From Phycisphaerae bacterium RAS1 (GTDB taxonomy: Bacteria > Planctomycetota > Phycisphaerae > UBA1845 > Fen-1342), in the NCBI GenBank assembly GCA_007859745.1, contig SMLU01000001.1:3348001-3412000 (forward strand): a stretch of 64,000 nucleotides of DNA, in the 5' to 3' direction. A program made the position numbers and the translations under genes. Below are positions 25,052-54,334 of this stretch, one piece after another. The notes beneath the pieces are model-generated. The model was not told the DNA's origin and did no database searches. It saw only the letters and a program-made list of their open reading frames with translations. Within the stretch, counting starts at the first letter, position 1, and every line of letters begins with the position of its first letter.

Positions 25052-25070
25052 GCGGTCGCGGCGGCGAGGA

Positions 25071-25236
25071 GCGGTCAGTTCGGGGGACCAGTCAGGGCGG
25101 GGTGGGACGGGCGTCTCGCCCGTCCGGCGGCGAGGCGCGGTCAGTTCGGGGGACCGGTCAGGGCGGGGTGGGACGGGCGTCTCGCCCGTCCGGCGGCGAG
25201 GCGCGGTCAGTTCGGGGGACCGGTCAGGCGGACCAG
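25071..25236. repeat. 66-bp direct tandem repeat, about 2.5 units
   Basis: GCGGTCAGTTCGGGGGACC begins at 25071, 25137 and 25203. Each full unit contains the family D core GGGTGGGACGGGCGTCTCGC, so this is a tandem amplification of a palindrome with its flank. The third unit is cut after GACCGGTCAGG. Confidence 0.9.
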
Positions 25237-40034: not shown

Positions 40035-41090
40035 TCATGGGCGCACCGACTGCCCGCCGTCGATCATGATCTCCGCACCGGTCACAAAGCTCGCCTCGTC
40101 CGACGCCAGAAACGCAATCACGGCGGCAACCTCCTCCGGCTCGCCGAAGCGGCCCAGCGGAACGCCGGCCGCCACTTTCTTCTCGTTCTCCGCACGATCC
40201 GGGCCGGTCCCGAGGTAGGCGTCCCACATCGGCGTGCGGATGGCTCCCGGCAACACGCAATTGCAGCGGATCGGGTAGCGCTTTTCGGCGCACTGCATTG
40301 CCGTGCTGCGCGTCAGGCTGCACAGGGCCGCTTTGCTGGCCGCGTACGCCGCCGCGCTCGACAACCCCAACCTCGCCGCGTAGGAGGACATGTTGACGAC
40401 CGCCCCTGCCCGGCTGCGGCGCAGCAGTGGCAGCATGGCGCGCGTGCCGAGCAGCGCCCCATCGACATTCACCGCGAGCACGGCTCGCCAGGTGTCGAGC
40501 GTGATTGACTCCGGATCCTGCGGCGCCGGTCCGCCGGGTTTTTCCGAGCCGCGACCGTGAGGGAGCGGTTCTGCATCTGCGCCGCGACCGGCGGGGAGCG
40601 GTTCTGCATCCGAGCCGCGACCGTGAGGAAGCGGTTCTGCATCCGAGTCGCGACCGTGAGCGAGCGGTTCTGCATCCGAGTCGCGACCGTGAGGAAGCGG
40701 TTCTGCATCCGAGTCGCGACCGTGAGGGAGCGGTTCTGCATCTGCGCCGCGACCGGCGGGGAGCGACCCGGCAAGCGCAAGCCCCGTGATTCCCGCCGCA
40801 TTCACGAGCACGTCGAGCCGGCCGAAGCGCTTCTCGACCAGCTCCGCCGCCGCCGCCCAGTCTGACTCGCTCGTCACATCAAGCGTCAGCGGGATGGCGC
40901 GCTCGGCGCGGTCGGCGTCCACGGAGACGTGCCCGGCATCCGCGCTCCGTTGGCCGGCGGCCGTCGTTCGAAGGTCGGCCAGCACGACCGCCGCCCCGCG
41001 ATCGAGGAGCAGGCGGGCCGTGGCGAGCCCGATCCCGGATGCAGCGCCGGTGACGAGTGCGGTTTTGTTCTGAAACTCGGTTCGCGCCAT
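40035..41090 (-). CDS. Short-chain dehydrogenase/reductase with a 75-residue repeat insert
   Basis: An NAD(P)-dependent oxidoreductase of 351 residues, about 75 longer than usual. The cofactor loop TGAASGIG is at residues 14-21, DVLVNAAG at 93-100, a catalytic-type serine in NMSS, and the YxxxK pair Y249/K253 in AYAASKAA; the C-terminus has the normal PGAIRTPMWD and IMIDGGQSVRP. The core is intact. Residues 109-183 are a repetitive insert in the loop after NAAG: about seven units of AEPLPHGRGSD-type, translated from a 33-bp tandem repeat of the family A arm. It starts at 41090. Substrate unknown; the fold may tolerate the insert because it lies in a surface loop. Confidence 0.85.
   Translation of the reverse strand: MARTEFQNKTALVTGAASGIGLATARLLLDRGAAVVLADLRTTAAGQRSADAGHVSVDADRAERAIPLTLDVTSESDWAAAAELVEKRFGRLDVLVNAAGITGLALAGSLPAGRGADAEPLPHGRDSDAEPLPHGRDSDAEPLAHGRDSDAEPLPHGRGSDAEPLPAGRGADAEPLPHGRGSEKPGGPAPQDPESITLDTWRAVLAVNVDGALLGTRAMLPLLRRSRAGAVVNMSSYAARLGLSSAAAYAASKAALCSLTRSTAMQCAEKRYPIRCNCVLPGAIRTPMWDAYLGTGPDRAENEKKVAAGVPLGRFGEPEEVAAVIAFLASDEASFVTGAEIMIDGGQSVRP
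40544..40766. repeat. 33-bp tandem array of family A arms inside the dehydrogenase gene
   Basis: Seven units of GAGCCGCGACCGTGAGGGAG followed by CGGTTCTGCATCC. The units at 40572 and 40740 have CGCGACCGGCGGGGAGCG instead. The period is 33 bp (11 codons), so every unit is in frame. On the other strand it reads as a different open frame. Confidence 0.92.
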
Positions 41091-41429
41091 TGCTCGACCT
41101 CGCAGCCCACGATGCCCATTGTAAGGTGTCGGGCTGGAGCGGAGCGCGGCACGGGACGGCAAGTAACGGGCACTGCCCACCCTAGCGCCTGTTCGCGCTC
41201 ACGTTTCGCCATTCGGCGGCGCGGCATGTCCGAACCCGCGCGGCCGTCCATCCCGCGGCCATCTGTCCGAACCCGCCGCGCCGAGCGGCGGGTTGACGCC
41301 CCTGGCCGAAACGGGCTGAAACGCCGGTTCGGTGATCAAACACCCGCGGCGGAAGCAGACATCTGTCCGCTTCCGCCGCGGTGGGTTTCGCGTGCCGCCG
41401 TTCTCAGGTCGGCATTCTCAGGCCGGCGA
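41091..41429. other. 339-bp gap between two minus-strand genes
   Basis: No gene. A partial family B element lies at 41229-41298, made of two left-arm-type fragments (TCCGAACCCGCGCGG and TCCGAACCCGCCGCGCCGAG). The terminator of the kelch gene lies at 41341-41384. Confidence 0.6.
41341..41384 (-). terminator. Hairpin terminator after the kelch gene
   Basis: CACCCGCGGCGGAAGC (41341-41356) pairs with GCTTCCGCCGCGGTG (41369-41383) around a 12-nt loop AGACATCTGTCC, which itself can fold. It lies about 50 bp past the kelch stop. It is a strong GC stem without a clear U run. Confidence 0.5.
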
Positions 41430-53243: not shown

Positions 53244-54334
53244 ACGCCCGCGCCTGCGGCTGGTCGCTCGTCCTGGCTGCCGCCGCGATGGGCGTGCCGG
53301 CGTGCGACCGCTCGGATGGCAAGCCGTCGCCGCCGCTGCGCAGCTTCGGGCGCACCGGGGCGGGCGCCGGTGAATTCGGTTACCCGCGGGCGGGGGCGTT
53401 CTTCGACCGCGAGCTCTACGTCGTCGACAAGACCGGACGCATCCAGGTTTTCTCGCCCGGCGGCGAGACGCTGCGATCCTGGCGCATGCCGGATACCAGC
53501 GCGGGGAAGCCGACCGGATTGTGCGTCGGGCCGGATGGCCGTGTGTTCGTGGCCGACACGCATTACGCGCGCGTGATGGTCTATGACCGCGAGGGCCGAT
53601 GGCTGCACGCGTTCGGGAGCTTTGGGACGGGGCCGGGACAGTTTCGCCTGCCGACGGATGTCGCGGTGGATGCGGCGGGGTTTATCTACGTCTCGGAGTA
53701 CGGCGGCAACGACCGCATCAGCAAGTTTTCGCCGGCGTTTGAATTTGCGGCGAGCTTCAGCGGGGCGGGTGAGGGCGGCGCAGCGGCGGGCAGGCCTGAC
53801 GCCGCGGCGAGCCCGTCCGACCCCGCGGCGAGCACGCCCGACGCCGCGGCGAGTACGCCTGGCGCAGCGGCGAGTACGCCCGGCGCAGCGGCGAATACGC
53901 CCGGCGCAGCGGCGAATACGCCCGGCGCAGCGCTGCCCTTCGACCGCCCGCAGTCGCTGCTCATCGATGCGGATGGAACGCTATGGGTCGCGGACGCCTG
54001 CAATCATCGCATCTGCCATCTGGACGCCGACGGCGCTTCGCTCCGCACGTTCGGCTCGGTCGGCGGCGCCCTCGGCGAGCTGCGTTTTCCCTACAGCATC
54101 GACCGGCTGAGCGACGGCTCGTTGATCGTGTGCGAATACGGCAATAACCGCGTGCAGCGCTTCTCGACCGACGGCCGCTCGCTGGGCGCCTGGGGCGTCG
54201 CCGGTCGCAAGCCGGGGGAGCTTGCGTACCCGTGGGCGGCGGTGGTCGGCGGCGACGATCTGATTTACGTCATTGACTCGGGCAACAACCGCGTGCAGGT
54301 GATCGACGGCCGAAGCGCGGGGACGTGGCGGTAG
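53240..54334 (+). CDS. NHL-repeat beta-propeller lipoprotein
   Basis: A 364-residue lipoprotein: signal ending GVPACDRS, then about six NHL blades (FGYPRAGAFFDRELYVVDKTGRIQVFSPGG, GLCVGPDGRVFVADTHYARVMVYDREG, FRLPTDVAVDAAGFIYVSEYGGNDRISKFSP, SLLIDADGTLWVADACNHRICHL, LRFPYSIDRLSDGSLIVCEYGNNRVQRFS, YPWAAVVGGDDLIYVIDSGNNRVQV). A linker of about 45 residues inside the propeller is made of tandem 7-residue units like STPGAAA (21-bp DNA repeats, 53823-53935). ATG overlaps the previous stop. NHL propellers bind proteins or sugars; the partner is likely the thioredoxin-like protein. Confidence 0.87.
   Translation: MNARACGWSLVLAAAAMGVPACDRSDGKPSPPLRSFGRTGAGAGEFGYPRAGAFFDRELYVVDKTGRIQVFSPGGETLRSWRMPDTSAGKPTGLCVGPDGRVFVADTHYARVMVYDREGRWLHAFGSFGTGPGQFRLPTDVAVDAAGFIYVSEYGGNDRISKFSPAFEFAASFSGAGEGGAAAGRPDAAASPSDPAASTPDAAASTPGAAASTPGAAANTPGAAANTPGAALPFDRPQSLLIDADGTLWVADACNHRICHLDADGASLRTFGSVGGALGELRFPYSIDRLSDGSLIVCEYGNNRVQRFSTDGRSLGAWGVAGRKPGELAYPWAAVVGGDDLIYVIDSGNNRVQVIDGRSAGTWR

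Follow-up and report, generated by a model that had tools for sequence, protein, structure and literature searches.

The gene of a short-chain dehydrogenase (SDR) at positions 40035..41090 (minus strand) of the window, i.e. of the whole 64-kb stretch of DNA analyzed, carries an in-frame array of seven 33-bp units. It is probable that this array originates from an insertion of REP-A, the name used here for a REP-like palindromic repeat with a CCGA foot, and that housekeeping enzymes of the order harbor REP/RAYT elements inserted in frame. Along these lines, a REP-A palindrome would have inserted in frame in a loop of the SDR; one arm would then have multiplied head to tail with a linker of ≈ 7 bases to give the 11-codon unit, the array presumably growing by slippage or unequal exchange. 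The original REP-A copy may have been brought by a RAYT transposase that acts on single strands, cutting and rejoining them in the manner of the IS200/IS605 relatives, and the RAYT would be active as a fused domain. Such insertions, for which splicing is not known, would be translated as part of the host protein, and selection would maintain their RAYT domain, which suggests a mobile element surviving as harmless protein filler.

The SDR gene and its seven-unit array

Starting with ATG at 41090 and with a stop codon ending at 40035, the gene encodes a protein of 351 aa, which was characterized by its ORF, Pfam assignment (adh_short_C2, E 6.6e-58, and also adh_short), homolog alignments, and an AlphaFold2 model. 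The Rossmann fold, the TGxxxGxG and NNAG-type motifs and the Ser-Tyr-Lys residues of the classical SDRs are all present. In line with the preliminary description, which had credited the protein with the catalytic residues, the columns of N97, S236, and Y249 show no variation among 45 sequences, and that of K253 shows almost none. The array itself (40542..40772, minus strand; residues 107-183) is built of units of 33 bp, or 11 codons, each derived from a REP-A arm with the CCGA foot. Read by codons, it begins with AGSLPAGRGAD, followed by six units of the type AEPL..GR.[SA][DE], and Tandem Repeats Finder returned a period of 33 for 40543-40755, with 6.5 copies, 88% matches, and 0 indels. Both the seven in-frame units and the period of exactly 11 codons, as originally described, were thus recovered; the term coding "microsatellite" has to be replaced, since a repeat unit of 33 bp is by size a minisatellite. 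The REP-A core, GAGCCGCGACCGTGAGGGAGCGGTTC, is matched without any mismatch at 40546..40571 (plus strand), in the unit closest to the C terminus. With up to three mismatches, the 26-base core has 10 matches within the window, while 100 shuffles gave 0.00 on average. In both of the two units tested, one of the six reading frames contains a stop codon. The pN/pS of 0.68 among the units stems from non-independent pairs and is not a test of selection. Upon folding as DNA, single units scored slightly better than their shuffles (z −1.39, −1.07, and −0.74), and four units taken together gave z +0.27.

A search for the SDR in 61 genomes of the bacterial family yielded five matches at E ≤ 1e-40, the own genome included. 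From 105 homologous ORFs, collected from 80 named contigs plus four loci of family genomes, the best 70 were aligned. None of these 70 carries the repeat peptide, and the insert is missing in all of them (≤ 2 residues in the insert columns), including the four homologs from the same bacterial family; this comparison, which had been proposed early on, argues against an old, fixed domain. Measured against the homologs, the insert comprises ≈ 82 residues (about residues 106-187), such that the extra segment reported earlier is real and its length of 75 residues was an underestimate. In the AlphaFold2 model, built with 44 named homologs, 216 residues have a pLDDT of at least 90, and 82 residues, mostly within 110-182, remain below 50. 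Foldseek matches of this model were SDRs, and a profile search gave 513 PDB sequences at E ≤ 1e-30. In the predicted structure, the insert is read as a flexible loop following strand 4 and adjoining the NAAG turn. Tolerance of the array can be rationalized by the unit being open in most of its frames and by the encoded peptide (AEPLPHGRGSD), which would form a flexible loop. A second, short stretch at residues ≈ 47-61 (window 40908-40952) has few matching residues in the homologs and likewise a low pLDDT.

REP-A and RAYT domains in this genome

The 19-base core of REP-A, with up to two mismatches, is present in 355 copies in the genome (G000), 172 forward and 183 reverse, compared to 0 forward and 1 reverse copies of the reversed 19-mer, and 99 inverted pairs were counted (control 0). 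By these genome-wide counts of copies and inverted pairs, the SDR unit is an arm of a palindrome that is common in the genome; the palindrome arm itself had been recognized from the window alone. Head-to-tail pairs amount to 33 (12 forward, 21 reverse; control 0), with spacings of 28 to 39 bases, which points to tandem growth with a linker at several sites of the genome beyond the SDR. The periods of those G000 arrays that have an exact head-to-tail pair were examined with respect to coding status. In frames with a Pfam host all periods are multiples of three, i.e. 33 in the SDR, 39/30 and 39 in ValRS, 30 in an Fe-S protein frame, and 39 in an S49 peptidase frame, versus three of the 11 other arrays (33, 33, and 36). 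A one-sided Fisher test by hand gave p ≈ 0.03 for 4 versus 11 loci, which is weak, as the arrays of the Fe-S and S49 frames precede the first domain and may lie upstream of the true start, and the 11 include several short frames without a Pfam scan. At L138:3871-4445 (G000:C1), inverted REP pairs recur at a spacing of 165 bases (5 × 33) in long open frames without a Pfam match.

A search of G000 with Y1_Tnp yielded 20 matches, three of them in frames of more than 1200 aa. These are the ORFs of ValRS (1563 aa; L133:1735-6426, G000:C4, plus strand), GcvP (1225 aa; L134:2913-6590, G000:C1, minus strand), and IleRS (1419 aa; L135:1475-5734, G000:C3, minus strand), each with Pfam host domains on either side of an in-frame RAYT, although the Y1_Tnp score of IleRS, 20.4, is under the curated cut-off of 23. 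A further in-frame RAYT, in the frame of PurH (L254:2552-5434, minus strand), was missed by Y1_Tnp and recognized on reading of the frame; it scored 130 bits versus an IleRS RAYT. The RAYTs of GcvP, IleRS, and PurH each have their own type of repeat. GcvP and PurH are each represented in G000 by one matching frame. PF00133 is found in one ValRS frame, one IleRS frame, a frame of 980 aa that is read as LeuRS, and, weakly, a frame of 862 aa that we take to be MetRS. The LeuRS frame (L256:1960-4899, minus strand) also features an in-frame inverted pair of REP-A, translated as SRDREGAV ... EPLPHGRGSD.

The RAYT of ValRS carries the HUH motif as NHVH and the Y----Q signature as YVDEHQ. It is bordered on both sides by 33-nt inverted repeats of REP-A, and its flanks hold REP-A arrays with spacings of 39 and 30 bases. 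Within 600 bp of the Y1_Tnp match of ValRS there are 12 copies of REP-A (2 on the plus and 10 on the minus strand), and none was detected within the same distance of the other 18 of the 19 matches checked. The second-best RAYT of the ValRS type (C4:493-1005) is flanked by another repeat. Since it alone among the transposase matches checked is flanked by REP-A, the ValRS RAYT is most likely the source of the SDR repeat, as judged from sequence, and the best candidate at hand. Another source is possible, because the check covered 19 of the 20 matches and at least one RAYT, that of PurH, escaped the Y1_Tnp search.

Embedded RAYT domains across the order and the selection acting on them

The survey of the order was based on a profile from eight RAYTs, seven of them embedded, and is accordingly biased to that type. 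Among 114 genomes 64 match at 1e-6; in frames of at least 800 aa, 35 matches reside in 34 frames from 32 genomes. Counting the other three genes of G000 and three frames cut by contig ends (G034, G107, and G077), the total of embedded RAYTs is 41 domains in 40 ORFs. The hosts are AlaRS (12), PurH (10), IleRS (6), ValRS (4), GcvP (2), LeuRS (1), MmeI (2), DNA methylase (2), and a MutS frame (1). According to a reading of the domain tables, host domains lie on both sides of the RAYT in 33 of the 40 ORFs and on one side only in four (MutS in G102, methylase in G080 and G091, MmeI in G097). The assignment of the RAYT in L216, L219, L221, L225, L229, L238, and L239 rests on our own profiles, Pfam Y1_Tnp being unlisted at 1e-5. 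The 40 leave out four further RAYT frames of 454-658 aa (L240, L242, L243, and L245), in which a host enzyme could not be clearly recognized.

In all 12 genomes with an embedded RAYT in AlaRS, the AlaRS matches are confined to the single RAYT-bearing frame. Among the nine PurH-bearing relatives, seven have a single matching frame, the exceptions being G014, with an extra fragment of 291 aa at a contig end, and G077, where the gene is split over two contigs. Three insertion sites were mapped in AlaRS, two in ValRS, and one in PurH, the latter used by two RAYT types; for IleRS, two sites were derived from flank sequence and domain tables. Automatic site mapping was confused where the reference itself contains a RAYT. 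An AlaRS ORF of 1686 aa (L223:4280-9337, minus strand, G011) houses two RAYT domains at two sites. The HUH motif is present in 40 of the 41 domains, the exception being DRVH in PurH of G018, and the tyrosine in all 41 (39 by pattern, two by eye). Exact inverted repeats of at least 14 nt link both flanks in 30 of the 41 embedded RAYTs, versus 35 of 1328 combinations of flanks from elements of different genes and genomes and 0 of 205 shuffled flanks. Between 25 codons upstream and 3 codons downstream of the domain start, an ATG occurs in 3 of the 41 embedded and in 8 of the 11 standalone RAYTs; any start codon occurs in 16 of the 41, and a start further upstream is possible. The Pfam matches listed for the scanned host ORFs include neither an intein nor a homing endonuclease domain.

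All dN/dS values given here are simple NG86 estimates with intervals from bootstrap. In the PurH pair G036/G032, from the same genus, the RAYT has a dN/dS of 0.15 (0.09-0.24) and the host parts 0.33 and 0.12. The left REP linker (26 codons) has 0.41 (0.11-1.76), with no clear excess over the RAYT; the right one (46 codons) has 1.31 (0.59-3.30) and is the only linker with a clear difference from the RAYT. The dS of the RAYT (0.63) is similar to that of the host parts (0.89 and 0.63), so that both appear to be of equal age; the linkers are below, with 0.28 and 0.24, perhaps due to younger or homogenized repeats. Between the two genomes the linkers have gained or lost complete units without a change of frame (QRAAGD, LPEARGS), which is evidence, from a neighboring case, that units of this sort vary in number in frame. 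Seven pairs were compared in total: where the RAYT dS is finite, in five of them, its dN/dS is 0.11-0.19, dS being saturated in two AlaRS pairs, and the host parts ranged from 0.19 to 0.30 over all seven. At the level of these sequence comparisons, the embedded RAYT domain is under purifying selection in the tested pairs. Distances of RAYT and host correlate for PurH (r 0.72, p 0.005), compared with AlaRS (r 0.23, p 0.12) and IleRS (r −0.23, p 0.78), so that joint inheritance of RAYT and host, as opposed to re-entry of the RAYT, is supported for PurH and unsupported for AlaRS and IleRS. In the RAYT tree, the grouping follows the host gene at variable support: 0.92 for GcvP, 0.93 for the second RAYT type of PurH, and 0.86 for IleRS, down to 0.56 for the first RAYT type of PurH and 0.39 for site B of ValRS, and the RAYTs of AlaRS are intermixed with a standalone RAYT and the ValRS RAYT of G000.

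Against this background, three other explanations of the SDR array have to be weighed. An ancient functional domain of the SDR family, either a linker or a binding tail, as the identity of the repeat peptide would fit the in-frame position and the exact period, yet it is very improbable in view of its absence from the 70 aligned homologs, four of them from the same family, of a sequence that is a genome-wide repeat in both orientations, and of the disorder of the insert in the model. An assembly artefact, i.e. a collapse of repeats or a misjoin that put the repeat into the gene, is given the same very small chance: repeats are places where assemblies fail, but here the units consist of whole codons in an open frame, the genome is assembled into 7 contigs with 99.18% completeness, and equivalent in-frame inserts recur, at identical positions of the hosts, in many genomes that were assembled separately. 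A dying SDR, in which the array is tolerated since the protein is unimportant, is quite unlikely, if less so than the former two. The pN/pS of the core, 0.60-0.64 in distant comparisons with three homologs of the family, could be taken in its favor, although at such high divergence the values neither prove nor exclude constraint, and so could the small unmatched stretch at residues ≈ 47-61. On the other hand, the 351 codons are free of stops and frameshifts, the catalytic and cofactor residues are retained in conserved columns, the predicted fold is confident, and inserts of like kind are borne by the sole frames of essential enzymes.

For the embedded RAYTs, the view that they are neutral passengers landed in frame by chance draws on the one linker with a dN/dS near or above 1 and on host proteins that appear complete. 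It is improbable given the low dN/dS of the domain next to that of the hosts, the difference of domain and right linker within the same PurH insert, and the retention of HUH (40/41) and tyrosine (41/41); a passive passenger would leave the low dN/dS unexplained, which an active and a domesticated RAYT would both fit. Domestication, in which the RAYT has lost its mobility and now belongs to the host enzyme or serves a process of the host, deserves more weight, although we consider it somewhat unlikely. Purifying selection, the scarcity of a nearby ATG relative to standalone RAYTs, and the PurH distances that track the host speak for it; the patchy presence, the occurrence in several unrelated host enzymes, the PurH site shared by two RAYT types, the inverted repeats at 30 of 41 domains, as opposed to the mixed-flank control, and the abundance of REP-A in G000 speak against it. 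Returning to the reading of REP/RAYT elements as in-frame insertions, we tentatively entertain, at rather less than even chances, a more specific version, in which translation and not splicing makes the element harmless and an internal domain, e.g. of ValRS or AlaRS, spreads repeats in trans. A RAYT with stop-poor palindromic ends would enter sites of essential enzymes in frame and lose its own start and stop; from within ValRS or AlaRS it would spread repeats to other places, the SDR included, and its location in an essential gene would protect it from frameshift and loss.

Relation to known elements, and further repeats of the window

REPs are extragenic by name; here they are read as protein, and transposase domains under purifying selection reside within essential enzymes encoded by single frames. 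The principle of a coding use of palindromic repeats has been described, with in-frame REP clusters encoding 43-82 aa inside genes, those of tRNA synthetases included (Di Nocera et al. 2013, PMC3733652). These GTAG/CGTC REPs resemble the SDR array in being palindromic repeats in frame within genes; they differ in the tag, GTAG or CGTC, from REP-A with its CCGA foot and its regular 11-codon array of seven, and a transposase gene placed in frame in a host gene, as is the RAYT here, is not described in the available part of that paper. Class 3 TnpAY1 are HUH-Tyr proteins with the Y----Q signature, found mainly in Planctomycetes, Acidobacteria, and Proteobacteria, whose REPtrons have flanking structures with a CnGA foot in high copy number (PMC6006769). 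REP-A conforms to this in foot (CCGA) and copy number (355), and the ValRS RAYT in being a cognate HUH transposase with Y----Q that is flanked by the repeat. The embedded RAYTs are alike to class 3 in HUH-Tyr, Y----Q, CnGA foot, and copy number, but the class 3 proteins in the accessible portion of PMC6006769 are encoded by separate genes, whereas here the RAYT domain is internal to essential enzymes; the same source reports in-frame REPs within tnpA genes of subclass 2.4. The Rickettsia palindromic elements, ≈ 150 bp in length and in frame in many unrelated genes (Ogata et al., via the review PMC10969869), differ from the 33-bp SDR unit in size, on which alone they were compared, and a transposase inside host genes is unmentioned in the part of the review at hand.

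Inteins are selfish insertions in host genes that are rendered harmless by splicing. The same has been put forward for IStrons (excerpt of PMC4227781). In contrast to both, the RAYT insertions described here have no known splicing, and Hint/splicing or homing endonuclease domains did not appear in the Pfam matches of these hosts, as far as scanned. Clusters of REPs in frame, RAYTs of class 3, and REPs read in frame within tnpA genes have all been published, and the SDR array alone accordingly adds one more case to the known in-frame clusters. Among the matches listed in the open-access literature, judged by titles and abstract openings, no report of a RAYT within a tRNA synthetase or PurH was found, and as a whole the RAYT-in-enzyme system goes beyond the published kinds as a variant, possibly as more. 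Two questions become testable, namely how much added protein essential enzymes tolerate and how RAYT genes persist, their persistence without evident mobility being an open question as stated in the accessible text of PMC6006769. As an aid to annotation, the peptides PLPHGRGS and SRDREGAV in proteins of these genomes may mark a mobile repeat and not a protein domain.

Three further repeats were noted in the window. A 66-bp tandem repeat with 2.6 copies (25059-25228) holds the GTGGGACGGGCGTCTCGCCCGTC repeat, which flanks the IleRS RAYT as well; repeats of the type TCCGAACCCGCCGCGCC..GGCGGG (41219-41300) resemble the flanks of the standalone RAYT at G000:C4:493-1005; and a tandem repeat of 21 bp, corresponding to 7 codons in length, extends over 7.3 copies at 53779-53932.
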